Origin: Leisingera sp. JC1
GTDB lineage: Bacteria > Pseudomonadota > Alphaproteobacteria > Rhodobacterales > Rhodobacteraceae
Length of the DNA: 40,787 nucleotides
Direction: 5' to 3'
Assembly: GCF_001679925.1 (NCBI RefSeq)
Contig: NZ_LYUZ01000013.1
Location: forward strand, 79,640-120,426
This document shows, in pieces, positions 17,634-33,566 of this stretch (the stretch's first letter is position 1; every line of letters starts with the position of its first letter). The notes below the pieces were generated by a model. It was not told the DNA's origin, did not search any database, and saw nothing but the letters and a program-made list of their open reading frames with translations. A program made the position numbers and the translations under genes.

Positions 17634-18308
17634 TTAACTGCCAGCCTTTGCCTGGAAAGCCTCCGCATGGCCGGGGAACAGTGTTTGAAGGAAGTTCAGC
17701 GTCTGCTCCAGCGCCCCTTCCCGGGTGTAGATGTGCGGGAACAAATGCAGCTTCTGCCAGTATCCGTCTGTCAGAGAGTCGATCCACCCGCCGGCCCTGT
17801 CCGCCTTCGCGGGATCCTCCGGTATTAGCTTGTGGCAGATCTCGGCAAGCATCTGAGACCTTTTTTCCTCAAACTCACCGGTGATCTCGGCATATTGCGG
17901 GACGAAATTCTGCTCCCCGAAGAAGGCAAACCAGATGGCGAGCGCGCTGGGATTGCAGATCTTGGGGCTGAAATCCGCCTCGATGATCTTGCGCAGCCGG
18001 GCTGCGGGGGCCTCGGGCGCCTTTTCCAGCGCCGCCTGCCAGTGCGCCTCATAAGTCTGGTACTGGTCCCGCAGCGCCTCGGTCAGGATGCCGGTCTTGG
18101 ACTTGAAATAGAAGACAGCAACGCCCTGCGACAGCCCGGCCTCGTTGGCCACGGTGGCCAGCGTCGTCTTGGCCAGCCCGTTGGCGACAACTGATTTCAG
18201 AGTCGCATCCAGAATCTGCCGCCGCCGCATGTCGGCGTTTTCCTTGCGTTCCTTGCGCGGCTTCTTGCCGCTGCCCTGCGATGCCACCATGAGAAATCCA
18301 AACTTCAA
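17634..18308 (-). CDS. TetR-family repressor, BetI-like
   Basis: This is a repressor of about 224 residues. Its N-terminal TetR HTH (MRRRQILDATLKSV to SQGVAVFYFKSK) closely resembles BetI, the choline/betaine repressor, and a helical ligand domain follows. The start is uncertain: TTG at 18308 has AAGGAGG just upstream and is used here; ATG 18290 and GTG 18326 are in frame but lack ribosome sites. A basic stretch (GKKPRKERKE) precedes the HTH. The palindrome TTGAGCGCTCAA lies 52 bp upstream, in the interval shared with the divergent four-gene operon, so it probably represses both itself and that operon. The same site recurs at the other promoters of the 18-34 kb cluster, which makes it the likely master regulator. 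Confidence 0.85.
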   Translation of the reverse strand: MKFGFLMVASQGSGKKPRKERKENADMRRRQILDATLKSVVANGLAKTTLATVANEAGLSQGVAVFYFKSKTGILTEALRDQYQTYEAHWQAALEKAPEAPAARLRKIIEADFSPKICNPSALAIWFAFFGEQNFVPQYAEITGEFEEKRSQMLAEICHKLIPEDPAKADRAGGWIDSLTDGYWQKLHLFPHIYTREGALEQTLNFLQTLFPGHAEAFQAKAGS

Positions 18309-18360
18309 TTTTCCTCCTTGTTCCACAATTCCCTGCGCCTGTCAGCCTCATTATTTTTAT

Positions 18361-18372
18361 TTGAGCGCTCAA
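18361..18372. promoter_or_regulatory. Operator TTGAGCGCTCAA, copy 1
   Basis: A perfect 12-bp palindrome lies between the TetR gene and the divergent FAD oxidoreductase operon. Identical copies are at 26548-26559 and 31957-31968. It is the likely TetR binding site for autoregulation and control of the 18440-24235 operon. Confidence 0.8.
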
Positions 18373-18439
18373 AAAAACTTTACGCGGAAAATCTTCTCTA
18401 CTAGGCTCCGGTCAGCAACAGCCGAACCTGGAGAACCTC

Positions 18440-20077
18440 ATGGGGCAGCACGACAGATATGACGCCATCGTGGCCGGCGCCGGGCATAACGGCCTGACAG
18501 CGGCCTGCTACTTGGCCAAGGCCGGCCTGAAGGTACTGGTGGTCGAAAAGAACGATTGGATCGGCGGCGCGGCAGTCAGCCGGTCGCTGCACGAGGGCTG
18601 GACCTATTCCAACTGCTCCTACGTCTGCTCGCTGCTGCGCCGCGAGATCGTCCGCGATCTGGAGCTGCCGAAATACGGGCTGCAGGTGATCCCCTACGAA
18701 GGAGGCGCCAGCTTCAGTCGCGACGGCGATTACTTTGCCTATATGTCGGACCATGACGCCCTGCGCCGCGAGATTTCCCGCCACAGCGCGCATGATGCCG
18801 ATGCCTATGACCGGTTCAGCCAGACGGTGATCCGCCAGTGCCGCTTCATCCGGCCGTTCCTGCTGCGCAACGCGCCGGACCCGACCTCGCTGAAGCCGCG
18901 CGACATCGGCGAGCTGCTGTTCCTGGTCAAGCAGGCGCACGGGCTGGGCAAGAAGGAGCTGGGCGAGACGCTGCGCTTCTGGTCGATGTCGATCGGCGAC
19001 TTCCTGGACGAGCATTTCGAAAGCGATCTGATCAAGGCGCATATCGCCGGAGCAGGCATCATCGGCACAGGGCTGGGCGTCTACTCCCCCGGCACCGCCT
19101 ATGTGCTGCTGCACCACTACATGGGTGATGTGGACGGCGCGATCGGCGCATGGGGTTTTGCCCGCGGCGGCATGGGGGCGATTTCCAACGCGCTGGGGGC
19201 CTGTTTCGAGGACGCAGGCGGCACCATCGTCACCGGCTCCGGCGTCGACCGCTTCCTGGTGGACAATGGCAAGGTGACCGGCGTGGCTCTGGACAACGGC
19301 GACGAATACCACGCGCCCATCGTCGCCTCCAACATGGATGTGAAACGCACCTTCCTGCAGCATACCGGCCAGCAGCATCTGCCCGGCGATTTCGTGAAGG
19401 CGGTCAAGCGGTTCAAGATCCGCGGCTCCTCGGGCAAGCTGAACATCGCGCTGGATGCCCTGCCCGAGTTCCCCGCCGCCCCCAAGGGCGCGCCCTTCCT
19501 GCGCGGCGATCTGCACTGCGCCGAAAGCCTGAACGAGCTGGAGCGCGCCTACGACGACTGGAAGGAGGGACGCTGGTCGTCCAATCCCTATTTCGACATG
19601 CTGATCCCCAGCCAGATCGATCCGACCATGGCACCGCCGGGCAAGCACATGATGACCGTCTTTGTGCAATACGCGCCCTATGACCTGGAGGTCGGTGGCG
19701 TGCGCGCGGGCACCAACTGGAACGGCCAGACCCGCGGCGCCTTTGCCGACTGCGTCTTCGACAAGCTGGAGCAGGCCTGCCCCGACATCCGCAGCAAGAC
19801 CGTGCATGCCGAGGTCCGCACCCCCTGGGACATCGAGCAGGAAGTGGGCTTGACCGAAGGCAACATCTTCCAGGGCGAGCTGACTTTTGACCAGCTGCTC
19901 TTCAACCGCCCCGTGCCGGGCTACGCGCAATACGACACCCCCATCAACGGCATGTATATCGTCGGCTCCTCGGCCCATCCGGGCGGCGGGGTGATGGCGG
20001 CACCGGGTGCGAATGCCGCCCGGGAAATCCTGCGCAATATCGGCCGCGGCGGCGCCATGACCGGCTATGCGGCCTGA
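18440..20077 (+). CDS. FAD-dependent oxidoreductase, phytoene-dehydrogenase-like (COG1233), copy 1
   Basis: This 545-residue flavoprotein has an N-terminal dinucleotide-binding motif (VAGAGHNGLTAACYL, Gly13-x-Gly15-x-x-Gly18) and the C-terminal FAD motif region MYIVGSSAHPGGGVMAAPG. It belongs to the phytoene desaturase/PYROXD2-like amine-oxidase superfamily. The reaction is unknown; in this context I infer dehydrogenation of an amine or alkyl chain of the imported compound. The ATG at 18440 has GGAG seven bases upstream. It is the first gene of a four-gene operon and is followed after 10 bp by a second member of the same superfamily. Confidence 0.85.
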   Translation: MGQHDRYDAIVAGAGHNGLTAACYLAKAGLKVLVVEKNDWIGGAAVSRSLHEGWTYSNCSYVCSLLRREIVRDLELPKYGLQVIPYEGGASFSRDGDYFAYMSDHDALRREISRHSAHDADAYDRFSQTVIRQCRFIRPFLLRNAPDPTSLKPRDIGELLFLVKQAHGLGKKELGETLRFWSMSIGDFLDEHFESDLIKAHIAGAGIIGTGLGVYSPGTAYVLLHHYMGDVDGAIGAWGFARGGMGAISNALGACFEDAGGTIVTGSGVDRFLVDNGKVTGVALDNGDEYHAPIVASNMDVKRTFLQHTGQQHLPGDFVKAVKRFKIRGSSGKLNIALDALPEFPAAPKGAPFLRGDLHCAESLNELERAYDDWKEGRWSSNPYFDMLIPSQIDPTMAPPGKHMMTVFVQYAPYDLEVGGVRAGTNWNGQTRGAFADCVFDKLEQACPDIRSKTVHAEVRTPWDIEQEVGLTEGNIFQGELTFDQLLFNRPVPGYAQYDTPINGMYIVGSSAHPGGGVMAAPGANAAREILRNIGRGGAMTGYAA

Positions 20078-20087
20078 GGACCAGAAG

Positions 20088-21659
20088 ATGACCACACCAA
20101 CCTACGACGCAATTGTCATCGGCGCGGGCCACAACGGGCTTGCCGCTGCGGCAACACTGGCCCGCAAGGGCAAATCCGTCTGCGTGATCGAGAAGAACGC
20201 AACCGCCGGCGGCATGGCCCGCAACACCACGCTTGCAAACGGGGTACAGGCGCCGGAAATCGCGCATCTGCTGTATAATCTGCACCCCAAGGTGAAGAAG
20301 GAACTGGGCATTGGCTCCGCCCGCGCACCGCTGCAGGTGCGCGACCTGCCGGCGGTTTCGCTGTCGGAGACCGGCAACCATGCGGTGATCCGCAACGGCA
20401 AGGCAGAACTGGCAGACGGACGGCCCCACCCGGAAGCCGCGCCCTTTGCCGAACTGATGCGCCGCCTGACGCTGTTTGCCGGGCTGCTGGGGCAGCTTTC
20501 CACAATATCCCCGCCCTCGCTTGACGGCGGCCTCACCAGCCTCGGCGCACTCACGGAGCTTGCCGGGCTGGCCAAGCTGGGGCTGGATCTGAAACGGATG
20601 GGCAAGAAGGACATGCGCGAATTTCTCCGCGTGCTCCTGTCCAACGCCTATGACCTGATCCTGGACGATCTTGAGGACGGACCGCTGGCCGGTGCACTGG
20701 CAGCGGATGCGGTGCGCGGCGCCTATGCCGGGCCGCGCTCACCCGGAACCGTGTTCACCCTGATGTACCGCCTGGGCCAGGGCGGCGGCGCGCAGTTGCC
20801 GATCGGCGGCATGGGCGCGGTTGCGGCTGCATTTGAGGCCGCAGCCCGTGCGGCCGGGGCTGAAATCCGCACCGGCACCGGCGTGGCCCGGGTCCGGGTT
20901 GAAAACGACCGCGCAGCGGGCGTGGTGCTGGAGGACGGCACCGAGCTGTCTGCCCGGGCTGTTCTGAGCAACACCGGACCGATGCCCGCGATGATGCTGG
21001 CAGGCGCCGGGCACTACGACGTGGAAGCAGTGCGGCGGATGCGCAACCAGCGCTGCAAGGGCGCCGCCGCCAAGGTGAACCTGGTTCTGAGCACTGCGCC
21101 CGTGTTCACCGGCCTCAGCCCCGAGCTGATGGCGGGCCGGCTGCTGATCGCCCCCAGCGCCACCTATGCCGAACGCGCGTTCAACCCGGCGAAATACGGG
21201 GAGATGCCCAAGAACCCGGTGATCGAAGCCGTCATCCCGAGCCTGACCGATCCGGCGCTGGCCCGCGGCGGTCAGCATGTGCTGTCGGCGGTGGTCAGCT
21301 CCGTTCCCTACGCGCTGGAGGGCGGCTGGGATGAGGCAGCCCGCGAAAAACTTAAAGCCATCACGCTCGAAACGCTTGAGAACTACGCCCCCGGAATCAG
21401 CGCGCTGGTCACGGAATGCCAAGTGCTCAGCCCTGCCTGCATCGAAGCTCGGACAGGCGCGCCGGGCGGCCATTGGCACCATGCGGAGATGGGCGTTGAC
21501 CAGATCCTCACCGTGCGGCCTGCCAACGGCATGGCGCATTACCGCTTCGGCCCCGAGGGCTATTATCTTTGCGGCGCGGGCGCTCATCCCGGCGGCGACG
21601 TGACCGGGCTGGCCGGCCGCAACAGCGCGCTGCAGCTTCTGAAAGACGGGGTTCTCTGA
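20088..21659 (+). CDS. FAD-dependent oxidoreductase, phytoene-dehydrogenase-like (COG1233), copy 2
   Basis: This 523-residue flavoprotein is of the same superfamily as its upstream neighbour, with VIGAGHNGLAAAATLARKG at the N-terminus and YYLCGAGAHPGGDVTGLAG at the C-terminus. The two proteins share layout but differ strongly in the middle, so they look like old paralogues that could form a heterodimer or act in sequence. The ATG at 20088 is used (GAGG twelve bases upstream); a start at 20067 would overlap the previous gene. Its TGA overlaps the next start as TGATG (21657-21661), so translation is coupled. Confidence 0.85.
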   Translation: MTTPTYDAIVIGAGHNGLAAAATLARKGKSVCVIEKNATAGGMARNTTLANGVQAPEIAHLLYNLHPKVKKELGIGSARAPLQVRDLPAVSLSETGNHAVIRNGKAELADGRPHPEAAPFAELMRRLTLFAGLLGQLSTISPPSLDGGLTSLGALTELAGLAKLGLDLKRMGKKDMREFLRVLLSNAYDLILDDLEDGPLAGALAADAVRGAYAGPRSPGTVFTLMYRLGQGGGAQLPIGGMGAVAAAFEAAARAAGAEIRTGTGVARVRVENDRAAGVVLEDGTELSARAVLSNTGPMPAMMLAGAGHYDVEAVRRMRNQRCKGAAAKVNLVLSTAPVFTGLSPELMAGRLLIAPSATYAERAFNPAKYGEMPKNPVIEAVIPSLTDPALARGGQHVLSAVVSSVPYALEGGWDEAAREKLKAITLETLENYAPGISALVTECQVLSPACIEARTGAPGGHWHHAEMGVDQILTVRPANGMAHYRFGPEGYYLCGAGAHPGGDVTGLAGRNSALQLLKDGVL

Positions 21660-22837
21660 TGACCAAACATGTTCCCATCGGCCTGATCGAAACCCCGTTC
21701 CAGTCGCGGCTGGACACGCACAGCACCGCCAAGAGCTGGACCAACTGGGCCGGCTATGCCTCGGCTGCGATGCTGGACACGGTGGAATTCGAATATTTCG
21801 CCATCCGCAACCAGACCACGCTGTTCGACATCTCGCCGATGCACAAATACCGCATCACCGGGCCGGACGCGCTGCGGGTGGTGAACCGGCTGGTGACCCG
21901 CGACGCTGCCAAGCTGCGCGACGGGCGGGTCGGCTATGCCCTGTGGTGCGACGAAGAAGGCATGGTGATCGACGACGGCACCCTGTTCCGCTTTTCCGAG
22001 ACGGACTTCCGCCTGTGCTGCCAGGAACCGATGTACACTTGGCTGCTCGATACCGCCTGGGGCTTTGACGCGGAAATCACCGATGAAAGCCACGATATCG
22101 CGGCGCTGTCGCTGCAGGGGCCGACCTCCTTCTCGCTGATGCAGGACGCGGGCCTGCAGGCCGTCGCGGAGATGAAGCCCTTTGACTGGCGCGAGATCGA
22201 GCCGGATCTCTGGGTTTCGCGCACCGGCTTCACCGGCGACCTCGGTTATGAGCTTTGGGTGCCGAACGGCAAGGCGCTGGAGCTGTGGGACCGGCTGTGG
22301 GCCAAGGGCGGCCACTGGGGCCTGAAGGCGATCGGCTTCGACGCCCTCAACATATGCCGGATCGAGGCCGGGTTCATCGCCGCGGGCTTCGACTTCCAGC
22401 CGGTTCACACGGCCATGCGGCTGGGCCGCGGCCGCAGCCCGCTGGAACTGGGGTTCGGCAAGATGGTCGATTTCACCAAGGGCCATTTCAACGGCCGCCG
22501 GGCGCTGCTGGACCAGCAGAAGAACGGCCTGCGCTACCACCTGCGCAAGATCGAGATCGGCGGCTTCAAACCGGCGGACGGCGCGCTGATCTACCACAAG
22601 AAGAAGAAAGAGGTGGGGCATGTGACCTCGGGCGTCTGGTCCCCGACCACCAAGCGCAACATCGCGCTGGCCGAGTTCAAGGCGCCCTTCGGCGACGGCA
22701 TCACCGATGACCTGTGGGCCGAAATCTATGTCAACGAGGAAGGCCAATGGAACAAGCGGCTGGTGCCGGTCACCATTGAAGACAAGCCCTTCTTCATCAA
22801 CAGCCGCGCGCGGACGACCCCGCCGCGCCCGTTCTGA
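21659..22837 (+). CDS. GcvT-family aminomethyltransferase (folate-dependent)
   Basis: This 392-residue protein belongs to the T-protein/DmdA/sarcosine-oxidase-tail family, which passes one-carbon units from N- or S-methyl substrates to tetrahydrofolate. Seen: TLFDISPMHKYRITGPDA (55-72), the MVIDDGTLFR loop (102-111) with the family's acidic residue pair, GFTGDLGYELW and a C-terminal barrel domain with TSGVWSPT. It is not DmdA by sequence. In this operon it could collect methyl or formaldehyde-level carbon released during demethylation. The start is fixed by the TGATG overlap with the previous gene; an apparent longer frame from 21569 runs inside that gene. Confidence 0.85.
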   Translation: MTKHVPIGLIETPFQSRLDTHSTAKSWTNWAGYASAAMLDTVEFEYFAIRNQTTLFDISPMHKYRITGPDALRVVNRLVTRDAAKLRDGRVGYALWCDEEGMVIDDGTLFRFSETDFRLCCQEPMYTWLLDTAWGFDAEITDESHDIAALSLQGPTSFSLMQDAGLQAVAEMKPFDWREIEPDLWVSRTGFTGDLGYELWVPNGKALELWDRLWAKGGHWGLKAIGFDALNICRIEAGFIAAGFDFQPVHTAMRLGRGRSPLELGFGKMVDFTKGHFNGRRALLDQQKNGLRYHLRKIEIGGFKPADGALIYHKKKKEVGHVTSGVWSPTTKRNIALAEFKAPFGDGITDDLWAEIYVNEEGQWNKRLVPVTIEDKPFFINSRARTTPPRPF

Positions 22838-22855
22838 ACCGGATCAGGTGCTTTA

Positions 22856-24235
22856 ATGACCAAGATGAAACCGAACACGTTTGCAAACGAACCCAGCCCG
22901 GAAAAGCTGCATGAGTGGGACCGCACCCACCAGCTGCATCCCTGGATGGCGATGGATGACTGGCGCGGCTATGACAACATGCTGGTGGAGACCGCTGAGG
23001 GCATCCACATGTGGGACAGCGCAGGCAAGCGCTATATCGACGGCCCCGGCGGCATGTGGTGCACCCAGATCGGCTATGGCCGCCAGGAGATGGCCGACGC
23101 CATCGCCGCGCAGGTGATGAAGCTGCCCTATACCTCCCCCTTCACCAACACCACCGAGCCCTCGGCGGTGCTGGCCCGCAAGATCGCGGACATGGCGCCG
23201 GGCGATTTGAACAACGTCTTCTTCACCACCGGCGGTTCAACCGCGGTGGATACCGCGCTGCGCACCATGCAGTACATGAACAACCGCCGCGGCGAGCCGC
23301 AGAAAAAGACGATCATCGCCCGCGAGAAGGGCTACCACGGCTCCACCTACCTGGCCCATTCGGTGACCGGCAAGGAGCGCGACAAGAGCCATTTCGATTT
23401 CGAAACCCGGCTGGTGCATTTCCTGCCCGACGTGAACCCCTACCGCCGCCCCGCCGGGATGAGCGTCGAGGACTGGTGCGATGCCAAGGTCGCGGATCTG
23501 GAAAACGCCATCGCGGAAATCGGCGCGGACAAGATCGGCGCTTTCATCGCCGAACCGATCCTGTCCTCCGGCGGGGTCATCGTGCCCGCGCCCGGCTACC
23601 ACAAGCGCACCTGGGAGCTGTGCCGCGCAAATGACATCCTCTACATCTCTGATGAGGTGGTGACAGGCTTTGGCCGCCTCGGCCACTGGTTCGCGTCCGA
23701 GGAGGTCTTTGGCATCCAGCCCGACATGATCACCTGCGCCAAGGGCCTGACTTCCGGTTACCTGCCGCTGGGGGCCTGCATCATCTCCGACAGGGTGATG
23801 GAGCAGATGAGCCATCTGGGCACCCCCTCTTCCTTCACCAACGGTTACACTTATTCGGGCCATCCGGTGTCCTGCGTCGCGGCGCTGAAGAACATCGAGA
23901 TCATCGAGCGCGAGGGCATTCTTGAGCATGTCCGTGCCGTCACCCCGCATTTCCAGGCGCGCCTGCGCGATCTGATGAGATTCGATATTGTTGGTGACGC
24001 ACGCGGCGAGGGGCTGCTGGGCTGCATCGAATGCCAGGCAGAGGATCTGGAGGCCGAACGCAGGCTCGGTTCAATGATTGATGATGCCTGCGAGGAGATG
24101 GGCCTGATCGTGCGCCCACTGATCAACATGGCGGTGTTTTCGCCGCCGCTGATCATCACCCTGGACCAAATCGACGAGATGTTCGACATCCTGGAGCGTG
24201 CCATCCAGCAGGTTGAGGCGCAGCTGGCAGCCTGA
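22856..24235 (+). CDS. Class III pyridoxal-phosphate aminotransferase
   Basis: This 459-residue fold-type I aminotransferase has PLP lysine Lys296 in CAKGLTSGYLPLGA and the pyridine-nitrogen Asp266 in ISDEVVTGFGR. The GGSTAVDTALR segment (127-137) replaces the more common GGSEANE. Class III enzymes act mostly on omega-amino groups (beta-alanine, GABA, taurine, diamines) with pyruvate or 2-oxoglutarate. Its place at the end of the operon suggests the pathway yields a primary amine that is deaminated here to a semialdehyde. Gap to the previous gene is 18 bp; a strong terminator follows at 24279. Confidence 0.88.
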   Translation: MTKMKPNTFANEPSPEKLHEWDRTHQLHPWMAMDDWRGYDNMLVETAEGIHMWDSAGKRYIDGPGGMWCTQIGYGRQEMADAIAAQVMKLPYTSPFTNTTEPSAVLARKIADMAPGDLNNVFFTTGGSTAVDTALRTMQYMNNRRGEPQKKTIIAREKGYHGSTYLAHSVTGKERDKSHFDFETRLVHFLPDVNPYRRPAGMSVEDWCDAKVADLENAIAEIGADKIGAFIAEPILSSGGVIVPAPGYHKRTWELCRANDILYISDEVVTGFGRLGHWFASEEVFGIQPDMITCAKGLTSGYLPLGACIISDRVMEQMSHLGTPSSFTNGYTYSGHPVSCVAALKNIEIIEREGILEHVRAVTPHFQARLRDLMRFDIVGDARGEGLLGCIECQAEDLEAERRLGSMIDDACEEMGLIVRPLINMAVFSPPLIITLDQIDEMFDILERAIQQVEAQLAA

Positions 24236-24278
24236 AGCGGACCCGGGTGGCACAGGTTCCCGTCACCCCTCCCGAACT

Positions 24279-24317
24279 GGCGGGCGCAAACGGTGGTCCC
24301 GGCGCCCGCCCTTTTTG
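24279..24317 (+). terminator. Rho-independent terminator of the four-gene operon
   Basis: GGCGGGCGC (24279-24287) pairs perfectly with GCGCCCGCC (24302-24310) around a 14-base loop, followed by CTTTTTGTT. It lies 44 bp past the aminotransferase stop. Confidence 0.85.
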
Positions 24318-24464: not shown

Positions 24465-26504
24465 TTACACAGTGTGCTCTCGGCGCCCGTACTTCTTGGC
24501 CAGATCAACCTCCTGCCCCAGGTCCATCGCCGCGCGGTAGCCGCTTTGCACGGCGGCGGCGATAATATGCGGGGCCTCGGCATCGCCGATCCGGGTCACC
24601 GACTTGATCCCGGCTTCCCCCAGCCCCTCCCCCATTGCCTTCAGCCCTTCGTACAGGCCCAGAACCGGCAGGCGGCGGGTGAGCGGAATGATGGCATCGC
24701 AGGCAAGGGGGCTGCGCGCGTCCGAGAACATGCACGCCAGCACCGCTTCGCCCTGCTGCGCGGCCACCAGCATCCGGTTGGGCACCACCGCAACGCCCGC
24801 CTCGATCAGCGCCGCATTGGACTGGTAGACCTCCGTGGTCCACTGCCCCCAGTCGCAGGGGCGGCCTGCAGGCGTCACCAGGGTGACCCGGTGCCCTTCC
24901 TTGCGCAGCTGCAGCGCCAGGACCGAGCCGAGGTAGTAGTGGTCATCGTCATAGATCAACACATGACCGGCATCGAGCGGCTCCCCGTTCAGCACGGTCT
25001 CGGCAGACACGATCATGCCGGGCACTTCTTCTTCCAGCCCGGTGTCGGAGTGCCGCCCGATGGTATCCGTTGCCCAGACCGCCCCGGTAGCGGCAATCAC
25101 ATGCGAGACACCCAGGTCCAGCACATCCGCCGCCTCCAGCGGGCTTTCCGGGTAGACCTCCACATTGGTCAGCTTTTCGATCTGCCCGACCCGCCAGTCG
25201 CGCACGCGGGCCCATTCCATCATCCCCGGCAAGCGGGATTCGCGGGTGACGCGGCCACCGAGGACACGGCGCGCCTCGGCCAGCATCACCGAATGGCCGC
25301 GCTCGCCCAGCACCCGGGCAGCCTCCAGCCCGGCGGGCCCGGCGCCAACCACCAGCACCTTCTCCGGCGCCTCGCTGCGCCCGGTCTTTTCCGGGTGCCA
25401 GCCTTGGCGCCATTCCTCGCCCATGGTCGGGTTCTGGGTGCAGCGCAGCGGCACCCCCAGCGAGTCATGCGCGTAGCAGATGTTGCAGCCGATGCATTCG
25501 CGGATGTCCCCGCTGCGCCCCTCTTCGATCTTCTTCGGCAGGAACGGATCAGCAATCGACGGCCGCGCCGCGCCAATCAGGTCCTGCCCGCCCTGGCGGA
25601 TCACCTGCGCCATGGTGTCCGGCGAGGTGTACCGCCCCACCGCCACCACCGGTTTCGAGGTCAGCGATTTCGCCTGCGCAATGCTGCCGGTGAAAGACGC
25701 TTCCTTTACAAACCGGCTCGCGCCCATCTCGACGCTGTAGTCCGGCACCACCAGATCCCACAGGTCCGGCAGGTCCGCCAGCATGGCAAAGGCGTCATAG
25801 CTTTCCGCATCCTCGAGCCCGACGCTGAACCGGGTGGCGACGGCGCATTTGTGGCCAACCGCCTCCTTGGTTTCCTCGATCAGCTCGCGCACCAGCCGCA
25901 ACCGGTTTTCCAGGCTGCCGCCGTATTCATCGCTGCGGGTGTTGTTCACCGGGTCGAGGAATTCCGACAGCAGGTAGCCATGGGTGGCATAGACATAAAC
26001 GATATCAAACCCCGCCTCGACCGCCCGCAGCGCGGCATCGCGGTGCCAGTTGCGGATGTTCCGGATGTCCTCCCGGTCGATCTTTCTGGCCTGCCCCGGA
26101 TGCAGCACTGTAGAATCCGTCTGCAGCCGATTGCGCATGCCCAAGGGCGCCAGCCGGGTGCCGAAATTGGTCACCATGCCACCGCCGATCCACAGCTCCA
26201 CCCCGGCCAGCGCGCCATGCTCATGCACAGCGTCCGTCATCAGCCGGTTGGCGCGGATGTCATCCTCATCCCACAGCGCAGCATAGGGGTAATAGTCGTT
26301 GTCCGAGGTCGGGTGGATCGAGCAGAACTCGGTATTCACCACCCCCCAGCCGCCTTCCGCCTTCATTCCGCGCATCGCCGCCACCGTCCGCGGCCGCCGC
26401 CAGCCCATTCCGGCACAGTGCGGCACCTGGTAAAACCGGTTCCTCGTCTCCACGGGACCGATTTTCAATGGCTGGAACAGGATGTCATGGCGGGGATCGC
26501 GCAT
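24465..26504 (-). CDS. Trimethylamine-dehydrogenase-like Fe-S flavoprotein (N-demethylase candidate)
   Basis: This 679-residue protein has an FMN TIM barrel (about 1-370), a four-cysteine 4Fe-4S site (Cys337, 340, 343, 355) and a C-terminal dinucleotide domain (VLVVGAGPAGLEAARVLG from 383). It is strikingly like trimethylamine/dimethylamine dehydrogenase: NRFYQVPHC keeps Cys30, the residue that forms 6-S-cysteinyl FMN there, and Tyr172/His175 match catalytic Tyr169/His172. The aromatic cage that holds trimethylammonium is changed: Tyr60 is Phe60, and the regions of Trp264 and Trp355 lack Trp. A different methylated amine is therefore likely; dimethylglycine-demethylase DgcA is a related case. 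Divergent from the binding-protein gene with an operator between. Confidence 0.85.
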   Translation of the reverse strand: MRDPRHDILFQPLKIGPVETRNRFYQVPHCAGMGWRRPRTVAAMRGMKAEGGWGVVNTEFCSIHPTSDNDYYPYAALWDEDDIRANRLMTDAVHEHGALAGVELWIGGGMVTNFGTRLAPLGMRNRLQTDSTVLHPGQARKIDREDIRNIRNWHRDAALRAVEAGFDIVYVYATHGYLLSEFLDPVNNTRSDEYGGSLENRLRLVRELIEETKEAVGHKCAVATRFSVGLEDAESYDAFAMLADLPDLWDLVVPDYSVEMGASRFVKEASFTGSIAQAKSLTSKPVVAVGRYTSPDTMAQVIRQGGQDLIGAARPSIADPFLPKKIEEGRSGDIRECIGCNICYAHDSLGVPLRCTQNPTMGEEWRQGWHPEKTGRSEAPEKVLVVGAGPAGLEAARVLGERGHSVMLAEARRVLGGRVTRESRLPGMMEWARVRDWRVGQIEKLTNVEVYPESPLEAADVLDLGVSHVIAATGAVWATDTIGRHSDTGLEEEVPGMIVSAETVLNGEPLDAGHVLIYDDDHYYLGSVLALQLRKEGHRVTLVTPAGRPCDWGQWTTEVYQSNAALIEAGVAVVPNRMLVAAQQGEAVLACMFSDARSPLACDAIIPLTRRLPVLGLYEGLKAMGEGLGEAGIKSVTRIGDAEAPHIIAAAVQSGYRAAMDLGQEVDLAKKYGRREHTV

Positions 26505-26671: not shown

Positions 26672-27733
26672 ATGAAAATTTTGAAAACAGCCACTGCGCT
26701 TGGCATGGTTTTGTCGCTTCAGGCAGGGTCCGGCCTGGCCGCCGATGCAGACCTGACGGTGTTCGATTGGGCCGGTTACGAGGACCCGGAGTTCTTCGCC
26801 GCCTATATCGACGAACACGGCGACAGCCCGACCTTCGCCTTCTTCGGCGACGAGGAGGAGGCCTTTCAGAAACTGCGCTCCGGGTTCCGCGCCGACGCAG
26901 TGCACCCGTGTTCGCAGTCGGTGCCGAAATGGATCGAAGCCGGCCTGCTCGCGCCCCTGGACACGTCCAAGATCGAACGGTGGGATGAACTTGAGCCCAG
27001 CTTCCGCGACATTAAGGCATACACCAAGGACGGGCAGAGCTACTTCATCCCGGCGGACTGGGGCAACACGGCGGTCACCTATCACAGTGACCATCTGAGC
27101 GACGCGGACGTGGCCTCCTTGCACGCCTTCGCGGACCCCAAGCACCAGGGCCGCATCTCGATCGGTGACAATGTTGACGACGCCTATGCGCTGGCATTCC
27201 TGGCCACCGGCGTCAAGGACTGGACAAATGCCACGGATGAGCAGTTCCAGGCGGCCTCGGAATTCCTGCGCGCCGTTCACCAGAACGTTCGCACCTACTG
27301 GTCCGACGGCGCCTCGCTGGCGCAGCTGATGCAAAGCGGCGAGGTCTACCTGGCCTGGGCCTGGAACGAGACCTATTCAACGATGAGCTACGAAGGCCAC
27401 CCGATCGCGATCAAACGCGATACGGATGAGGGCGCGTCCAGCTGGGTCTGCGGCTATGCCAAATTAGCCGATGCACCGGGGTCCGAGGACAAGTTCTATG
27501 ATTTCATCAACGCCTGGCTGGAACCGAAGACGGCAAACTACCTGGTGAACAACTGGGGCTATGGCCACGGCAATGCCAAGGCAATGGCGGAAATGAACGC
27601 CGAGGACCTTACCGCAATGGGGCTTGAGATCAGCGAAGACCTGAAGACCAAAACCCTGTGGCAAGCGCCGGTGCCTTCCGAACTGCGCGAGAAGATGATT
27701 GCCGAATTCGAGCTGATCAAAGCCGGTTTCTGA
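26672..27733 (+). CDS. Periplasmic binding protein, PotD/spermidine-type, of the catabolic cluster
   Basis: This 353-residue secreted protein has a signal peptide (residues 1-23, ending GLAADA) followed by LTVFDWAGYEDPEFF and a type II binding fold of the PotD/PotF family, whose members bind polyamines and related cations. Tryptophans and acidic residues (WNETYSTMSY, YWSDGASLAQL, DWGNTAV) could form a cation-pi cage, but I cannot map the site. The ATG at 26672 has GGGAG seven bases upstream; the longer frame from 26567 would add 35 residues ahead of the signal peptide. Its ATPase and permeases are encoded convergently from 28959 to 30648, so the importer is split between two promoters with the same operator. 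Confidence 0.85.
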   Translation: MKILKTATALGMVLSLQAGSGLAADADLTVFDWAGYEDPEFFAAYIDEHGDSPTFAFFGDEEEAFQKLRSGFRADAVHPCSQSVPKWIEAGLLAPLDTSKIERWDELEPSFRDIKAYTKDGQSYFIPADWGNTAVTYHSDHLSDADVASLHAFADPKHQGRISIGDNVDDAYALAFLATGVKDWTNATDEQFQAASEFLRAVHQNVRTYWSDGASLAQLMQSGEVYLAWAWNETYSTMSYEGHPIAIKRDTDEGASSWVCGYAKLADAPGSEDKFYDFINAWLEPKTANYLVNNWGYGHGNAKAMAEMNAEDLTAMGLEISEDLKTKTLWQAPVPSELREKMIAEFELIKAGF

Positions 27734-27761
27734 CTCCGGCTTACGGCTCCCGGTGAACATG

Positions 27762-27792
27762 AAAACGCCCCGCCAATCCGGCGGGGCGTTTT
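27762..27792. terminator. Bidirectional terminator
   Basis: AAAACGCCCCGCC (27762-27774) and its exact inverse GGCGGGGCGTTTT (27780-27792) flank a 5-base loop between the convergent binding-protein and ATPase genes. A-run and T-run make it functional from both sides. Confidence 0.9.
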
Positions 27793-27855
27793 ATGAATGG
27801 GCTTCTCTGACAGCCTAAACTTTGCCCGCACCGCCGCAGAGGCGCGGACCCTGCT

Positions 27856-28959
27856 CTATTGGAACAGCACGATCGAATCCGCGCCCCAGCCAACCGGCAC
27901 TGTGCTGCCCGCAGGCACGATCGACCGGCCCGCAGTGTTGCGCATCGAGATGGTCACATCCTCGGCATGGCCGGGCAAGCGCACGCTGTAATAGGTCATA
28001 TCGCCGTAATAGGCGGTGCCGGTCACCTCTCCCCTGGCCACCTGTTCGGCGTGCTCATTGCCGTCAAACAGAATTGTCAGCATCTCCGGCCGGATGCCGA
28101 TTGAATTCAGCCGCCCCGGATCCAGCCCCTCGGGGATCTGGGCCGACGGCAGCGCAATGCTGCCTAGCGCAGGAATGTCGAGCGCCAGATGGCCGTTGAT
28201 CGGCCCGGTGGCGCGGGCATCGAGGAAGTTCATAACCCCGATGAAGGAGGCGACGCGCCGGTCGACAGGACGGCGGTACAGCTGTTCCGGAGTGGCGAGC
28301 TGGGCAATCCGGCCTTCGAACATCACCGCAATCCGGTCGGACATCGTCAGCGCCTCCTCCTGGTCGTGGGTCACCAGGATGAAGGTGATGCCGAGCTTCT
28401 GCTGCAGCTGGCGCAATTCGACCTGCATCTGATCACGCAGCTTCTTGTCCAGCGCCGACAGCGGCTCATCCAGCAGCACCACTTTCGGCTTCATAACCAG
28501 CGCCCGGGCCAGCGCTACCCTCTGGCGCTGGCCGCCTGACAACTCATGCGCAGCGCGGGCGCCCAGGCCGCCCAGGTCCACCATATTCAACGCCTGCTCC
28601 ACCTCGCGGGCAATTTCCGCCTTTGGCAGCTTGCGGGTCTTGAGGCCATAGCCGACGTTCTCTGCCACAGTTAAATGCGGAAAAATGGCATAGGACTGGA
28701 ATACCATATTGGTGGGGCGCCGGTTGGCCGGAACCCCCGCCATGTTCTTGCCGCCGATCATAATGGTGCCGCTTGACGGCATCTCAAACCCGGCGATCAT
28801 CCGCAGCAGGGTGGTCTTGCCGCACCCCGAGGGTCCCAGCAGGGAGAAGAACTCACCCTCGTTGATGGTTGCGTCGATGCCTTTCAATGCCTGAAAGGTC
28901 CCGAATGACTTGGTGATGCCTTTCAGATCGATGATAGGCTTGGGGAGCGGGGACGTCAT
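27856..28959 (-). CDS. ABC transporter ATP-binding protein, PotA-like
   Basis: This 367-residue ATPase has Walker A GPSGCGKTT, signature LSGGQRQRVALARAL, Walker B VVLLDEPLSALD, the switch histidine in LVTHDQEEALTMSDRI and a C-terminal TOBE-type domain. It belongs to the polyamine/opine/quaternary-amine importer group. The ATG at 28959 follows the permease stop by one base and has GGAGG about twelve bases upstream; the TTG at 28968 is too close to that ribosome site. Last gene of the Rieske-permease-permease-ATPase operon. Confidence 0.9.
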   Translation of the reverse strand: MTSPLPKPIIDLKGITKSFGTFQALKGIDATINEGEFFSLLGPSGCGKTTLLRMIAGFEMPSSGTIMIGGKNMAGVPANRRPTNMVFQSYAIFPHLTVAENVGYGLKTRKLPKAEIAREVEQALNMVDLGGLGARAAHELSGGQRQRVALARALVMKPKVVLLDEPLSALDKKLRDQMQVELRQLQQKLGITFILVTHDQEEALTMSDRIAVMFEGRIAQLATPEQLYRRPVDRRVASFIGVMNFLDARATGPINGHLALDIPALGSIALPSAQIPEGLDPGRLNSIGIRPEMLTILFDGNEHAEQVARGEVTGTAYYGDMTYYSVRLPGHAEDVTISMRNTAGRSIVPAGSTVPVGWGADSIVLFQ

Positions 28960-28960
28960 G

Positions 28961-29794
28961 TCAGGCAAATCCTCCGGTGGCTGAAGCTTCGATACCCTGT
29001 TTTCTGGCGGACCGGCGGCGGAACCACTCGGCCAGGATCAGGAGCAGGACGGACAGGACCAGCAGGATCGTCCCCAGCGCCATCACTGACGGCAGCTTTC
29101 CAGGGAAGCGCAGCTGGCTCCAGATGTAGACCGGCAGCGTGACTTCGGTGCCGGTCAGGAAGAACGCGATGATGAACTCATCGAGCGAAATGGTGAAGGT
29201 GATCAGCAGGCTCGACACCACTCCCGGCATCACTAGCGGCAGGATCACCCGCCGGAACGTGCCCCAGCGGGTTTCACCCAGATCAAAAGATGCTTCTTCA
29301 AGGCTTTGATCAAGCCCCTGGAAGGCCGAGCTCAGGATCGCAATCGCAAACGGCGTGCAGATCAGCACATGGCCCAGGACCACAGTCACCAGCGACAGCG
29401 GCATGCCCAGCTGCATCAGCAGGACCAGCAGTGCCACCGCCACGATGATTTCCGGCAGCACCAGCGGCAGCAGGATGAAGCTCATGATGCCGCGCTTGAG
29501 CGGAAACCGGTAGCGGGCGGCGGCCCGCGCGGCGCAGGCGCCCAGCACGGTGCTCAGCACCGCCGACGACAGGCCGACCACCAGCGAATTCCGCACCGCG
29601 CCATGCAGCGCTTCGGTCTGCCACAGCACGCCGAACCACTTTGCCGTGAACCCGGTCAGCGGAAAGGAGATGACCGTCGCATCGTTGAACGCGAACATCG
29701 GCAGCAGGATCACCGGCGCATAGAGAAACACCATGTAGGCAACCGCGTAAACGGCCAGCCATTTGGACGGGAGAGACTTCAGTGCGGACTTCAT
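28961..29794 (-). CDS. ABC transporter permease, PotC-like
   Basis: This 277-residue inner-membrane permease has about six hydrophobic segments and the cytoplasmic EAA loop (EEASFDLGETRWGTFRRVILPLVMPG, here noted by its ends). It is the second permease of the polyamine-type importer. Its ATG overlaps the stop of the first permease as ATGA (29791-29794). The C-terminus is basic (RRRSARKQG). Confidence 0.9.
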   Translation of the reverse strand: MKSALKSLPSKWLAVYAVAYMVFLYAPVILLPMFAFNDATVISFPLTGFTAKWFGVLWQTEALHGAVRNSLVVGLSSAVLSTVLGACAARAAARYRFPLKRGIMSFILLPLVLPEIIVAVALLVLLMQLGMPLSLVTVVLGHVLICTPFAIAILSSAFQGLDQSLEEASFDLGETRWGTFRRVILPLVMPGVVSSLLITFTISLDEFIIAFFLTGTEVTLPVYIWSQLRFPGKLPSVMALGTILLVLSVLLLILAEWFRRRSARKQGIEASATGGFA

Positions 29795-30648
29795 TGAACT
29801 TTGCCCCCGAACCGTTTGCCAAGCAGGAAGATGACCGCGCTGATGCTCGCCACGATCAGCATTGACGACAGCGCCAGCGCGGCGCCCAGCGGCGCGTTAT
29901 TCGCCTTGCCGAACTGAATCTGGATCATGTTGGCGATCATCAGCCCGTCGGTGCCGCCGACCAGCTTGGGGGTGATGAAATCGCCAATAGTCGGGATCAA
30001 TACGATCAGCGTGGAGGCGACCACGCCCGGCATTGCCAGCGGCAGAGTGATCCGGAAGAACCGCCGCACCGGGCCGTCGCCCAGGTCCTCGGCCGCCTCC
30101 AGCAGCGAGCGGTCGATTTTCTCCAGCGCCACGAAGATCGGCAGGATCGCAAACGGCGCCCAGGCATGGGCCAGCGTCAGCACCACGGCGTTGGCGTTGT
30201 ACAGCAGGAAGGTCAGCGGCTCCTCAATGATGCCCAGCCCTTTCAGCGCGGTGTTGAGCACGCCGTTGTAGCCCAGGATCACCTTCCACAGGAACACCCG
30301 CAGCAGATAACTGGTCCAGAACGGAACCGTGATCAGGAACAGCCACAGCGCTTTGCGCTGCTTGACGTGGAAAGACAGGTAATAGGCAATCGGAAAGGCC
30401 AGAACCACGGTCACCAGCGTGACGATCAGCGAGATCTTCAGCGAGCGGAAGATCAAGGTGCTGTAGATCGGCTTGCTCCAGGCCTCCCGGTAATTATCCA
30501 GCGTGAGAGTGGTATCGAGCTCCAGATAGTTCTGGGTCCAGAAGCTGAACGTCAGCACCATTATCAGGGGTGCGGCCAGCATCAGCAGCGAATAGAGCAA
30601 AGTCGGGCTGATCAAAGCGAGGCCTTGGCGCCTCTCTCCTGTTAACAT
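29791..30648 (-). CDS. ABC transporter permease, PotB-like
   Basis: This 285-residue inner-membrane permease has about six hydrophobic segments and the EAA loop (EAAEDLGDGPVRRFFRITLPLAMPG, here noted by its ends). The ATG at 30648 is chosen because GGAGG lies nine bases upstream; a start at 30711 would precede the hairpin and overlap the Rieske gene. It follows the Rieske oxygenase gene by 59 bp, which contain the hairpin at 30675-30702. With the PotC- and PotA-like genes and the binding protein at 26672 it forms one importer. Confidence 0.9.
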   Translation of the reverse strand: MLTGERRQGLALISPTLLYSLLMLAAPLIMVLTFSFWTQNYLELDTTLTLDNYREAWSKPIYSTLIFRSLKISLIVTLVTVVLAFPIAYYLSFHVKQRKALWLFLITVPFWTSYLLRVFLWKVILGYNGVLNTALKGLGIIEEPLTFLLYNANAVVLTLAHAWAPFAILPIFVALEKIDRSLLEAAEDLGDGPVRRFFRITLPLAMPGVVASTLIVLIPTIGDFITPKLVGGTDGLMIANMIQIQFGKANNAPLGAALALSSMLIVASISAVIFLLGKRFGGKVQ

Positions 30649-30674
30649 TCCTGGGTCCTCCTGCCCCGTTAATA

Positions 30675-30702
30675 GGGCGCCGCCAGTGCCTTGGCGGCGC
30701 CC
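30675..30702 (-). terminator. Intercistronic hairpin between Rieske and transporter genes
   Basis: GGGCGCCGCC (30675-30684) pairs perfectly with GGCGGCGCCC (30693-30702) around an 8-base loop, 5 bp past the Rieske stop. On the minus strand it is followed by TATTAAC, not a T run. It is probably a partial terminator or 3' protection element that raises Rieske mRNA over transporter mRNA. Confidence 0.65.
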
Positions 30703-30707
30703 TCCAT

Positions 30708-31913
30708 TCATGTCTTGTCAAGCTGCGCAAGCAGTTCCGCGTTGCGGGCCTTCAGCTGCCCGGGTTCCGGTTCGTCATGGTCGAGAACCGGGAATATCTT
30801 GCGCAATTCATCGTGGTAGCTGCGCACGCCATTCTCCAAATCGGAAAGGATAACCCCATCATAAGCACTGGAGAACGCCGCCTCCCAGCACCATTCGATC
30901 AACTGCTCGTCCTCTTTCGAGGTGATCCGGTCGATGCGCCCGCTGAGATAGCGCGCGGCGCGCATCAGCCGGTCTTCGCCAGGCCGCTTGTAGCAGGCGC
31001 TGCGCTGGATGGTGCGGCCGTTTTCAACCGGGAACTCGTGGTAGAAAATGACCGAATCCGGGTAGACTCCGAACACAAGATTCGGGAACAGGGCGAGATA
31101 GAGCCAAGTGGTCTCGGCAACCCCGTCAGGCATATCCGTCTGGGGCAGCAGAGATTTGTACTTCCGTACACTCCAAAGGCGCCCGTCGCCGCCGCGGAAG
31201 CCCCCGTAGGAGCGCGCAACTCCCTCGCTGAAGGATTCATCGGCGTAATTGCTGCCGAACAGGTCGTGCAGGCCGGGATGCGCCAGCGGCACATGGTAGC
31301 CCTCATTGTCGACGTCACGCACGCATTTCCAGTTTGCCTCGATTTCGGTCAAGGCGATCCCCGCTCCGTCCGGCAGGATGGTGTCCAGGCCATAAGGCGC
31401 GACCTCCTCGTCGAAACGTGCCATGATCTCCGAGACCGGAGGCTGCGGCCCGGGCTTGAAACGGACAAAGACAAACCCTTGCCAGATATCCATTTCCACC
31501 GGCTTCAAGCCCCATTCCACCGGGTCCAGATCCGGCAGCGTCTCGGGCCGGGCAGCTCCCCGCAGGGTGCCGTCCAGATTGTAGACCCAGCCGTGGAACG
31601 GACAGATGATCGCATTTTTACACTGCCCCTTCTCCTCGGCCAGCACGCGGCTGCCGCGGTGGCGGCACAAGTTGTGGAAAGCGCGGACATTGCCGTCCTT
31701 GCCGCGCACAACCAGCGCCCGCTCGCCCACGAATTCGGCGGTCATGTAATCGCCTGGCTCCGGCACGTCGTTCACGTGGCACACAAGCTGCCAATGCCGA
31801 CGGAACAGGTGCTCCTTTTCTTCCTCCAGCAGTTCCGGATTGAAGTAGCTCCAGGCGGGCAATCCGGTGCGGCCGGCTCTGGGATCAGACTGAATCAGCA
31901 CTTCGTCCTTCAT
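30708..31913 (-). CDS. Rieske non-heme iron oxygenase, alpha subunit (quaternary-amine demethylase type)
   Basis: This 401-residue oxygenase has a Rieske centre Cys83-x-His85 (NLCRHRGSRV) and Cys104-x-x-His107 (ICPFHGW). The mononuclear iron motif DVDNEGYHVPLAH carries His207 and His212. The architecture matches GbcA/CntA/stachydrine-demethylase-like enzymes, which hydroxylate an N-methyl or N-alkyl group of quaternary ammonium substrates and release formaldehyde. No reductase gene is adjacent, so electrons must come from elsewhere. The ATG at 31913 has GGAAGGAG eight bases upstream; ATG 31949 lacks a ribosome site. It heads the operon with the importer, so uptake and first attack are co-expressed; an operator lies 44 bp upstream. 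Confidence 0.85.
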   Translation of the reverse strand: MKDEVLIQSDPRAGRTGLPAWSYFNPELLEEEKEHLFRRHWQLVCHVNDVPEPGDYMTAEFVGERALVVRGKDGNVRAFHNLCRHRGSRVLAEEKGQCKNAIICPFHGWVYNLDGTLRGAARPETLPDLDPVEWGLKPVEMDIWQGFVFVRFKPGPQPPVSEIMARFDEEVAPYGLDTILPDGAGIALTEIEANWKCVRDVDNEGYHVPLAHPGLHDLFGSNYADESFSEGVARSYGGFRGGDGRLWSVRKYKSLLPQTDMPDGVAETTWLYLALFPNLVFGVYPDSVIFYHEFPVENGRTIQRSACYKRPGEDRLMRAARYLSGRIDRITSKEDEQLIEWCWEAAFSSAYDGVILSDLENGVRSYHDELRKIFPVLDHDEPEPGQLKARNAELLAQLDKT

Positions 31914-31950
31914 ACGGGTCTCCTTCCCTCTGACGGGAATCAATAGCATT

Positions 31951-31974
31951 TTTTATTTGAGCGCTCAAATAAAA
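31951..31974. promoter_or_regulatory. Operator TTGAGCGCTCAA, copy 3, within a 24-bp perfect palindrome
   Basis: The 12-bp core (31957-31968) is extended symmetrically by TTTTAT on the left and ATAAAA on the right, giving a perfect 24-bp palindrome between the divergent Rieske and MttB-like genes. It is the most symmetric of the three copies. Confidence 0.8.
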
Positions 31975-32026
31975 TATTTCCGCCGAGAGTATTCTGCAGG
32001 CTGGACAAACCCGGATTTCCGCGCCA

Positions 32027-32048
32027 AGTTTGAGCGATCACTCAAACT
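32027..32048. promoter_or_regulatory. Variant operator with wider half-site spacing
   Basis: AGTTTGAG (32027-32034) and CTCAAACT (32041-32048) are exact inverse arms around CGATCA. The half-sites TTGAG/CTCAA match the operator but stand four bases further apart, centred on GATC. It ends 15 bp before the MttB-like ATG at 32064, so it may control that gene specifically. Confidence 0.55.
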
Positions 32049-32063
32049 CAAAGGATGGACATA

Positions 32064-33566
32064 ATGCGCCGCGCCAGAAGCCGCAGAAGATCTCCCCTTT
32101 CGACTGACATTCCCGCCAGCAAAGGCCCGCACTCCCTGGCCACGCCAGCCTACACGCCGCTGACCCAGACACAGGTGGACAGGATCGTGGACACCGCGGT
32201 TGAATTGCTGGCCACCTCCGGTGTTGTGTTCGAGCCGGGCGGCGAGGCCGACAGCCTGCTGCGCAACGCCGGCTGCAGCCAGTCGGACGATGGCATTGTG
32301 ACAATTCCGGAAACCGTGACCCGCCGCGCGCTGGAAACCGCGGCCCGCAATACCATGCTGTGGGACCGCAACGGCGAAAACCCCATCACGATCGACTGCA
32401 ACCACACCTGGTTCATGCCCGGCATGACCTGCATCGCCGTTTACGACGAGGACACCGGAGAGCCGCGCCCCTCGACGCGGGAAGACCTCGCCCTGATCAC
32501 CCGGATCGCGGACAAGCTGCCGAATGTCGACGGCGTCTGCATCGCCGTGAAGAATGTCGAGGAATCAAACCAGTTCGGCGAAATCGACGAGTTTGCCTGC
32601 TTGATGGAAAACACCATCAAACCGCTGGAATACCTCTGCGAACACCCCTCATCGCTGGAGGCAGTGATCGAAATGGCGGCTGCTCTGCGCGGATCGCCTG
32701 AGGCGCTGCGGGACAAGCCCTATTTCCTGCATCTGATCACGCCGCTGCCAGTCAACCTGGCGCGGATCCACTCGGAACAGATCATCACCGCCGCGCGGGC
32801 GGGCATCCCGGTCGGTGTCGGCACCCTGCCCATCGGCGGCGCATCCTCCCCCATCACCCTGGCCGGCTGCATCACCCATGCGCTGATGACGGATTTCGCG
32901 GCTATCGTCCTGGGCCAGCTGGCCGCCGAAGGCAGCTTCTGCGTAGGCTGCTCCGACGTGAACTTCATGGAACCGGCCACCGGCGCTATCGGCAGCTTCT
33001 CCCAGACCTCGGTCGCCGACATGGCGATGTGCCAGGTGCGCCGCTCGCTGGGTTTCCCCTCGCTGACCGGCATCGGCGGCTGTTCGGTCGCCCGCCGCTT
33101 CAACCAGGATGCGGTCTGGGAAATCTCCTCGAACATGACCCAGATGTTCTACAACCGCCCCGCCACGATCGATTACATGGGCTCCCTCGATCAGGGCCTG
33201 ACCTACTCGCCGCATGCGCTCTTGCTGTGCGACGACCTTGCTGGCCTGCTGCGCAAGATGTGGCAGGGCTTGGAAATCTCGGCCGAGCAGATGGCCGTCG
33301 ATCTGATCCGCGAGGTCGGCCCCACCGGCAATTTCCTCGCCCATCAGCACACCGTCGACAACTGCCGGACGCAGGTCTGGAACTCCCGCTATTTCGGCCC
33401 GAACATCCCGCTGAGCAACACCGGGCTGGCGGATCAGGACCTTCTGGAGCGCATTGACGGCGACCTCAAGGTTATGCTGGCAGAACTGGAGCAGCCGGAC
33501 CTGCCGCCGGAAACCAAAGCAGCTGTATCCGCGATTTCAAACAAGTACCGCGGCCACGCGCCCTAA
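32064..33566 (+). CDS. Trimethylamine-methyltransferase (MttB)-family protein, copy 1
   Basis: This 500-residue protein is of the MttB superfamily (COG5598), TIM-barrel enzymes that move a methyl group from a quaternary or tertiary amine to a corrinoid protein. No in-frame TAG is present, so it is a non-pyrrolysine member like the glycine betaine (MtgB) and proline betaine (MtpB) enzymes. Segments GTLPIGGASSPITLAG, EISSNMTQMFYNRP and EVGPTGNFLAHQHT are typical. The ATG at 32064 has AAGGA eight bases upstream; ATG 32055 overlaps that site. No corrinoid-protein or activator gene is in the window, so it may use a distant partner or do other chemistry. Divergent from the Rieske operon with two operator-like sites between. 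Confidence 0.82.
   Translation: MRRARSRRRSPLSTDIPASKGPHSLATPAYTPLTQTQVDRIVDTAVELLATSGVVFEPGGEADSLLRNAGCSQSDDGIVTIPETVTRRALETAARNTMLWDRNGENPITIDCNHTWFMPGMTCIAVYDEDTGEPRPSTREDLALITRIADKLPNVDGVCIAVKNVEESNQFGEIDEFACLMENTIKPLEYLCEHPSSLEAVIEMAAALRGSPEALRDKPYFLHLITPLPVNLARIHSEQIITAARAGIPVGVGTLPIGGASSPITLAGCITHALMTDFAAIVLGQLAAEGSFCVGCSDVNFMEPATGAIGSFSQTSVADMAMCQVRRSLGFPSLTGIGGCSVARRFNQDAVWEISSNMTQMFYNRPATIDYMGSLDQGLTYSPHALLLCDDLAGLLRKMWQGLEISAEQMAVDLIREVGPTGNFLAHQHTVDNCRTQVWNSRYFGPNIPLSNTGLADQDLLERIDGDLKVMLAELEQPDLPPETKAAVSAISNKYRGHAP

Follow-up and report, generated by a model that had tools for sequence, protein, structure and literature searches.

The stretch analysed here, called the window, comprises 40,787 nucleotides of contig NZ_LYUZ01000013.1 of Leisingera sp. 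JC1 (positions 79,640 to 120,426), and twelve of its genes form a cluster between positions 17634 and 33566. They encode a BetI-type TetR repressor, two related flavin adenine dinucleotide (FAD) oxidoreductases named FAD1 and FAD2, a GcvT-like protein, a class III aminotransferase, a flavoprotein of the histamine dehydrogenase (HDH)/trimethylamine dehydrogenase (TMADH) type, a Pot-type ATP-binding cassette (ABC) importer, a Rieske oxygenase and a protein of the MttB superfamily (Table 1). The palindrome TTGAGCGCTCAA occurs three times among them, and comparison with related genomes strongly supports the view that it acts as a conserved operator and that the regulon is real. The cluster would probably direct the TetR-controlled import, three demethylations and transamination of a quaternary N-trimethyl compound.

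Table 1. Genes and sequence elements of the cluster, in window coordinates.
Feature	Position	Strand	Remarks
BetI-type TetR repressor gene (tetR)	17634..18326	-	TetR_N and TetR_C_6 domains
Operator 1, TTGAGCGCTCAA	18361..18372		Between tetR and FAD1
FAD1, CrtO/CrtI-like FAD oxidoreductase	18440..20077	+	Amine-oxidase-type fold
FAD2, related FAD oxidoreductase	20067..21659	+	29% identical to FAD1
GcvT-like folate-dependent one-carbon acceptor	21659..22837	+	GCV_T 181.7 bits; start at 21659 probable
Class III aminotransferase	22856..24235	+	PRK07036 663.1 bits, cut-off 618; nearest PDB 3i5t
HDH/TMADH-type flavoprotein	24465..26504	-	3k30 635.4 bits
Operator 2, TTGAGCGCTCAA	26548..26559		Between HDH/TMADH-type gene and binding-protein gene
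PotD-like solute-binding protein	26672..27733	+	Start at 26672 probable
PotA-like ABC ATPase	27856..28968	-	potA subfamily 360.8 bits, cut-off 355.6
ABC permease	28961..29794	-	82% relative on Parasedimentitalea plasmid annotated ABC transporter permease
ABC permease	29791..30711	-	75% relative on Parasedimentitalea plasmid annotated ABC transporter permease
Rieske oxygenase, CntA/GbcA-like	30708..31913	-	Open reading frame to 31949; start at 31913 probable
Operator 3, TTGAGCGCTCAA	31957..31968		Between Rieske gene and mttB
Secondary inverted repeat TTTGAG-CGATCA-CTCAAA (TTTGAG-N6-CTCAAA)	32029..32046		Just before mttB
MttB-superfamily protein, divergent subfamily	32055..33566	+	No pyrrolysine codon; MTTB 184.9 bits; start probably about 32064

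An initial annotation of the window had noted one palindrome for each transcription unit, and this is borne out for all the units that it named: the three copies are exact, and each lies within a divergent intergenic region. They are also the only exact copies in the whole genome of 5,190,966 bases, so that the palindrome is not a frequent sequence outside the three promoter regions, and the reversed pattern used as a control has 0 copies in the same genome. When up to two mismatches are allowed, the window holds 5 matches against 2.06 expected, a number that 5 of 100 shuffles reach; the signal therefore rests on the exact copies. Of the 248 family genomes analysed, 31 carry the exact palindrome, namely 12 of the 16 with an orthologue of the TetR protein (E ≤1e-55) versus 19 of the 232 others (Fisher p = 2e-9).

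To follow the position of the site, all twelve proteins of the cluster were mapped on 80 loci identified through the TMADH-type protein and on further genome stretches located with FAD1 or the palindrome. Gene counts per locus came from tblastn, matches below 40% of the query length being ignored (35% in the cross-genome gene-content table). The nearest named relatives found belong to Leisingera, together with one Ruegeria lacuscaerulensis record, and their TMADH-type proteins are 93-95% identical to that of the window. Operator positions were counted in 29 loci, after removal of three duplicates with identical tetR DNA (L132, L148 and L127); two members of this set, L120 and L123, had been retrieved because of the palindrome. 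With at most one mismatch, the site stands at the start of the HDH/TMADH-type gene in 17/17 cases (12 exact), of the Rieske gene in 14/14 (8 exact), of the MttB-like gene in 10/10 (3 exact), of FAD1 in 23/24 (16 exact) and of tetR in 26/27 (19 exact). It is absent from the starts of FAD2 (0/23), GcvT (0/22), the ABC ATPase (0/17) and the permease PermC (0/16). The aminotransferase gene has it in 2 of 25 cases and PermB in 1 of 15, in loci where those genes lead a unit (L023, L120 and L006). None of 62 sites in these loci falls inside a cluster gene. The scan of related genomes proposed in the initial annotation thus finds the site conserved at the starts of units, with the binding-protein gene, discussed below, as a partial exception.

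Loci retrieved later by similarity to the TetR protein, the Rieske protein or FAD1 (leaving out L154, which shares a contig with L023) show the site at 7 of 8 genes for TetR proteins of 49-67% identity and at all 8 Rieske genes of at least 60% identity, as compared with 0 of 5 Rieske genes of 52-56%. In two genomes already known to carry an exact palindrome elsewhere (G024 and G004), tetR and the Rieske-transporter unit are far apart, and the latter still has a site with one mismatch (L163, L164). In L006 the transporter operon starts directly at the operator, in the usual place of the Rieske gene.

The repressor itself changes in step with the site. The palindrome, with up to two mismatches, lies upstream of the gene in 31/31 rows for TetR proteins of at least 46% identity (28 without three duplicates; L120 and L123 included), as against 0/28 rows below 42%. 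The recognition-helix segment SQGVAVFYF is retained with at most two changes in every aligned TetR protein of at least 46% identity, while distant ones carry a helix such as SHGLVNFHF; the pattern SQG[VI]A.FY[FY] accompanies the site and other helices do not. Nine sister clusters have a site of their own, [CT]TGACTG-N3/4-[TA]GTCAATCA, each before their tetR. This motif has 9 occurrences in 2.68 Mb of examined sequence, a descriptive figure since it was derived from those same loci, and it is absent from two Rhizobiaceae sister clusters. As the sister TetR proteins differ in the helix and their site differs as well, operator and helix change together. We infer that the TetR protein of the window reads the palindrome. 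The single-repressor regulon of the initial annotation is thus strongly supported by site conservation and by co-variation of helix and operator. The likeness to BetI extends to the BetI-type C-terminal domain; the score of 104.5 bits is about half of the BetI equivalog cut-off of 201.3, and the accompanying gene set is another one. As to their content, the sister clusters L138-L146 combine FAD1-FAD2-GcvT with a pair of Rieske genes, and both their TetR protein and their operator differ from those of the window; some include a cupin resembling dimethylsulphoniopropionate lyases.

The proposed pathway can be set out as follows, its steps being read from protein families and gene swaps. The BetI-type TetR protein would bind TTTGAGCGCTCAAA-like operators and so repress the genes of the three divergent promoter regions until the N-trimethyl compound, or a breakdown product, releases it. 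The PotD-like importer would take up this compound, and the first methyl group would leave the quaternary nitrogen by the action of the Rieske oxygenase or of the MttB-like protein. The second would be removed by the HDH/TMADH-type flavoprotein and the third by FAD1-FAD2 with GcvT, the carbon being handed to tetrahydrofolate; the freed primary amine would finally be converted to an aldehyde by the class III aminotransferase. Three demethylations followed by transamination are proposed because the loci share a quaternary-nitrogen enzyme, one or two lower-methylamine enzymes and a primary-amine transaminase. Import, stepwise demethylation, one-carbon capture and transamination had been suggested in the initial annotation, and the pathway logic as a whole is likely. 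What the sequences show directly are the protein families, the operators with their conservation and the gene swaps; repression, the inducer and the order of steps are inferred from these.

The gene combinations retained in other genomes fit this logic. Gammaproteobacterial loci (e.g., L032, L040 and L051) keep the TetR protein, the aminotransferase, the Rieske protein, two HDH/TMADH-type genes and the Pot-type transporter. In loci without FAD1-FAD2-GcvT (L023, L153, L154 and L155), the TetR protein, the operator and the aminotransferase stay, and further HDH/TMADH-type and Rieske genes are present. A gene for an S-adenosylmethionine-dependent methyltransferase (L017:7895-8695; 50-74% identical in 20 other loci) recurs with the cluster and has no match in the window.

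Turning to the individual proteins, the flavoprotein had been called TMADH-like. It is of that family and retains the flavin mononucleotide cysteine and the iron-sulphur cysteines common to HDH and TMADH, but its best match is HDH (3k30; 524 bits to TMADH). Tyr60, Trp264 and Trp355, which we take to form the aromatic bowl of TMADH, are replaced by Phe, Tyr and Asp, so that both the best match and the Asp at the place of Trp355 point to HDH. A search of open-licence literature on HDH specificity found no matching paper. FAD1 and FAD2 match amine-oxidase domains, their best NCBIfam model being CrtO, far below its cut-off; in a fold search with the predicted model of FAD1 (predicted local distance difference test, pLDDT, 83.6), carotenoid desaturases are the top matches, followed by nicotine, putrescine and monoamine oxidases, Rab-GDI chains being interspersed. 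The PDB chain nearest to the GcvT-like protein is the C-terminal part of trimethylamine N-oxide (TMAO) demethylase. Coupling of a demethylase to a GcvT-type folate domain is likewise found in dimethylglycine and sarcosine oxidases and in TMAO demethylase; here the two CrtO-like FAD proteins and the GcvT protein are all separate polypeptides. The structural neighbours of the class III aminotransferase give no hint of its substrate.

The Rieske protein has both the Rieske and the catalytic domain, and its nearest PDB match is the carnitine oxygenase CntA, whose Glu at what we take to be the iron-bridging position it keeps. Its scores are low, 129 bits to CntA and 137 against a GbcA equivalog cut-off of 670; the cluster also differs from CntA and GbcA in its downstream genes and in having no cognate reductase in the regulon. 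Stc2, another demethylase of this type, acts on stachydrine. In the importer, the two permeases were assigned via the annotation of relatives. The binding protein keeps the aromatic cage residues of PotD/PotF, while of the three acidic polyamine ligands (by what we presume to be the PotD numbering) two are lost, D168 to N and D257 to C, and the third, E171, is Asp. Another ABC system of similar type lies at 8764-13046 of the window (minus strand), comprising a binding protein, a 681-residue permease and an ATPase that shares 48% identity with its counterpart in the cluster.

The MttB-like protein belongs to its superfamily, PF06253 covering nearly its full length (cut-off 25 bits), and in a fold search with its predicted structure ranks 1-10 are all MttB/MtgB family members; a mean pLDDT of 68.7 makes this model too poor for active-site interpretation. 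The family name given in the initial annotation therefore stands for a divergent member: its MTTB score is the lowest of 11 in the genome (the other ten reach 334-774 bits). A second, typical MTTB-family gene (753 bits) lies 3 kb from the cluster, at 36806-38365 on the minus strand. The secondary inverted repeat, overlooked in the initial annotation, stands between operator 3 and mttB in 5/5 Leisingera-type loci (the window, L004, L007, L018 and L024), with conserved halves and a varying spacer, and is absent from 8/8 other MttB loci tested; it may be a second repressor site giving separate control of mttB.

Between genomes, the Rieske and MttB-like genes often replace each other, which suggests that the two proteins are alternatives for the same step. 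A gene-content comparison covered 54 chosen loci out of 168. Separately, ten genomes were reached by way of loci, and seven of them have an MttB-like gene but lack any Rieske match above 39% identity. Within the family, 15 of the 16 genomes with a Rieske protein of at least 60% identity are without an MttB orthologue at E 1e-120, only Leisingera sp. JC1 having both; the genomes of L016, L020 and L023 also have none (that of L023 is apparently G327, one of the 16). Genome pairs with the Rieske gene in place of the MttB-like one offer a route to asking what the divergent MttB subfamily does. Four Rieske-related genes, of which two are annotated as encoding dioxygenase alpha subunits and the other two SRPBCC proteins, lie in the cluster on a Parasedimentitalea marina plasmid (L151), which gives no MttB-like match.

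It is possible, though unlikely, that the two proteins act on different substrates or steps and that the MttB-like protein is perhaps no methyltransferase. It differs at 10 of the 24 positions invariant in its ten paralogues (14 are kept), so its reaction may differ; three of the changes have a residue found in 16/16 orthologues and the others in 9 to 15. Its relatives also occur far outside this group, e.g., in Steroidobacterales, both genes are retained in Leisingera-type genomes and in L017, and the additional repeat in front of mttB suggests that this gene is controlled separately. The shared promoter slot, the frequent alternation between genomes and the fold-search result, as far as the predicted model can be used, argue for the same step.

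Several of these observations weigh against a single pathway with interchangeable first enzymes, and others join them. Besides the changed MttB positions and the loci with both genes, G319 has two MttB-like genes and a Rieske protein of 51% identity, so that one gene does not always exclude the other; several of the genomes with the MttB-like gene only are metagenome-assembled, which makes the absence of a gene uncertain. No Rieske reductase was found among the regulon genes or the 10 flanking open reading frames, to which the scan was confined. With regard to methyl transfer to a corrinoid protein, the whole genome contains a single PF02607 match. The site stands at just 13/19 binding-protein starts (12 exact). 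L159 has a TetR orthologue (49%) with the helix changed to SQGIAVFYF and neither the palindrome nor the cluster genes, and L158 and L120 have the TetR protein and the aminotransferase with neither the FAD pair nor an HDH/TMADH-type gene in the stretch examined. The palindromes of the 19 genomes outside the TetR set belong here as well.

As to the substrate, one candidate is a methylated lysine or a polyamine-like amine, on which FAD1 and FAD2 might act like human PYROXD2; the case is tentative and the candidate on balance doubtful. That PYROXD2 belongs to the same family as FAD1 and FAD2 is our presumption, which counts against the idea, as do the altered acidic ligands of the binding protein and the fact that no lysine-pathway gene is recognised in the window cluster. 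In its favour are the PotD-like character of the importer, the HDH-type Asp in the flavoprotein, the amine oxidases among the fold matches of the FAD1 model, and an AmaA/pipecolate-oxidase-like gene beside tetR in L134 (328.7 bits, below the cut-off of 600). A human PYROXD2 variant accounts for about half of N6-methyllysine variance, and the locus also marks dimethyllysine, trimethyllysine and N-methylpipecolate (PMC8109053, PMC5780481). A fuller but improbable version would make the cluster an undescribed aerobic pathway that acts on an N-trimethylated lysine- or polyamine-like compound: the O2-dependent Rieske protein and the cobalamin-type MttB relative would serve as interchangeable first steps under one repressor, and the CrtO-like proteins would do the job in methyl-lysine metabolism suspected for PYROXD2; the cluster could then provide a bacterial handle on PYROXD2-like enzymes. 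In a search of open-licence literature for trimethyllysine together with a Rieske oxygenase, the 15 matches listed out of 35 contain no mention of trimethyllysine.

It is decidedly improbable that the substrate is a known compound, glycine betaine or carnitine/choline, handled by a redundant gene set. The Rieske protein is nearest to CntA and GbcA and the TetR protein resembles BetI, but both fall far below the respective GbcA and BetI cut-offs; moreover, glycine betaine would, on general grounds, make a class III aminotransferase unnecessary, the importer is of the Pot type, and ten further MttB genes of the genome score higher. In favour of a known substrate, glycine betaine demethylation by the MttB-superfamily system MtgBCD is known from roseobacters: in the aerobic Ruegeria pomeroyi it passes the one-carbon unit to tetrahydrofolate (PMC12478193). 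The structure of MttB is covered by PMC9842639. The MttB-superfamily protein (PF06253) in an aerobic roseobacter is common to both systems. The MtgB genes of R. pomeroyi are not colocated, and the consulted part of PMC12478193 does not describe a regulon in which a Rieske enzyme is the partner; in the window, mttB encodes a divergent protein and faces the Rieske gene across a common promoter region. Homarine was considered and set aside: the available part of PMC9038784 offers no gene-level match, and a methylpyridinium would presumably not need a flavoprotein and an aminotransferase.

That the palindrome is another factor's site or a chance repeat, as its presence in genomes outside the TetR set might suggest, is hardly credible given its confinement to promoters, its co-variation with the recognition helix and the separate operator of the sister TetR proteins. 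Around the palindromes of those 19 genomes, 27 loci were retrieved (L095-L121), and just two of them contain cluster orthologues: L120 encodes a TetR protein of 46%, an aminotransferase of 65% and a binding protein of 59% identity, and L100 has, 5 kb from the palindrome, a TMADH-type gene of 65%; the remaining sites are taken as chance or as belonging to other regulators. L122 is a further stray palindrome in a genome that does have the TetR protein.

The initial annotation knew of no described pathway with this exact gene set, and a search limited to open-licence PMC papers likewise found none. The cluster offers a testable gene set for the uptake and demethylation of a methylated amine in marine roseobacters and their relatives, and its readable operator helps to locate the regulon in other genomes. 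Sister clusters are carried by plasmids of Rhizobium and Shinella (an Ensifer plasmid shows just a FAD1 match), and therefore the compound class is not just marine. On a Shinella sumterensis plasmid (L170), a 37% FAD1 homologue adjoins gcvT among CoA-ligase, hydroxyacyl-CoA dehydrogenase and 3-keto-5-aminohexanoate cleavage genes, a neighbourhood that reads like a carnitine catabolic cluster and is in keeping with the proposed pathway. Elsewhere in the window, at 34807-36443 on the minus strand, a haem-NO-binding (HNOB) gene adjoins a GGDEF diguanylate cyclase gene.

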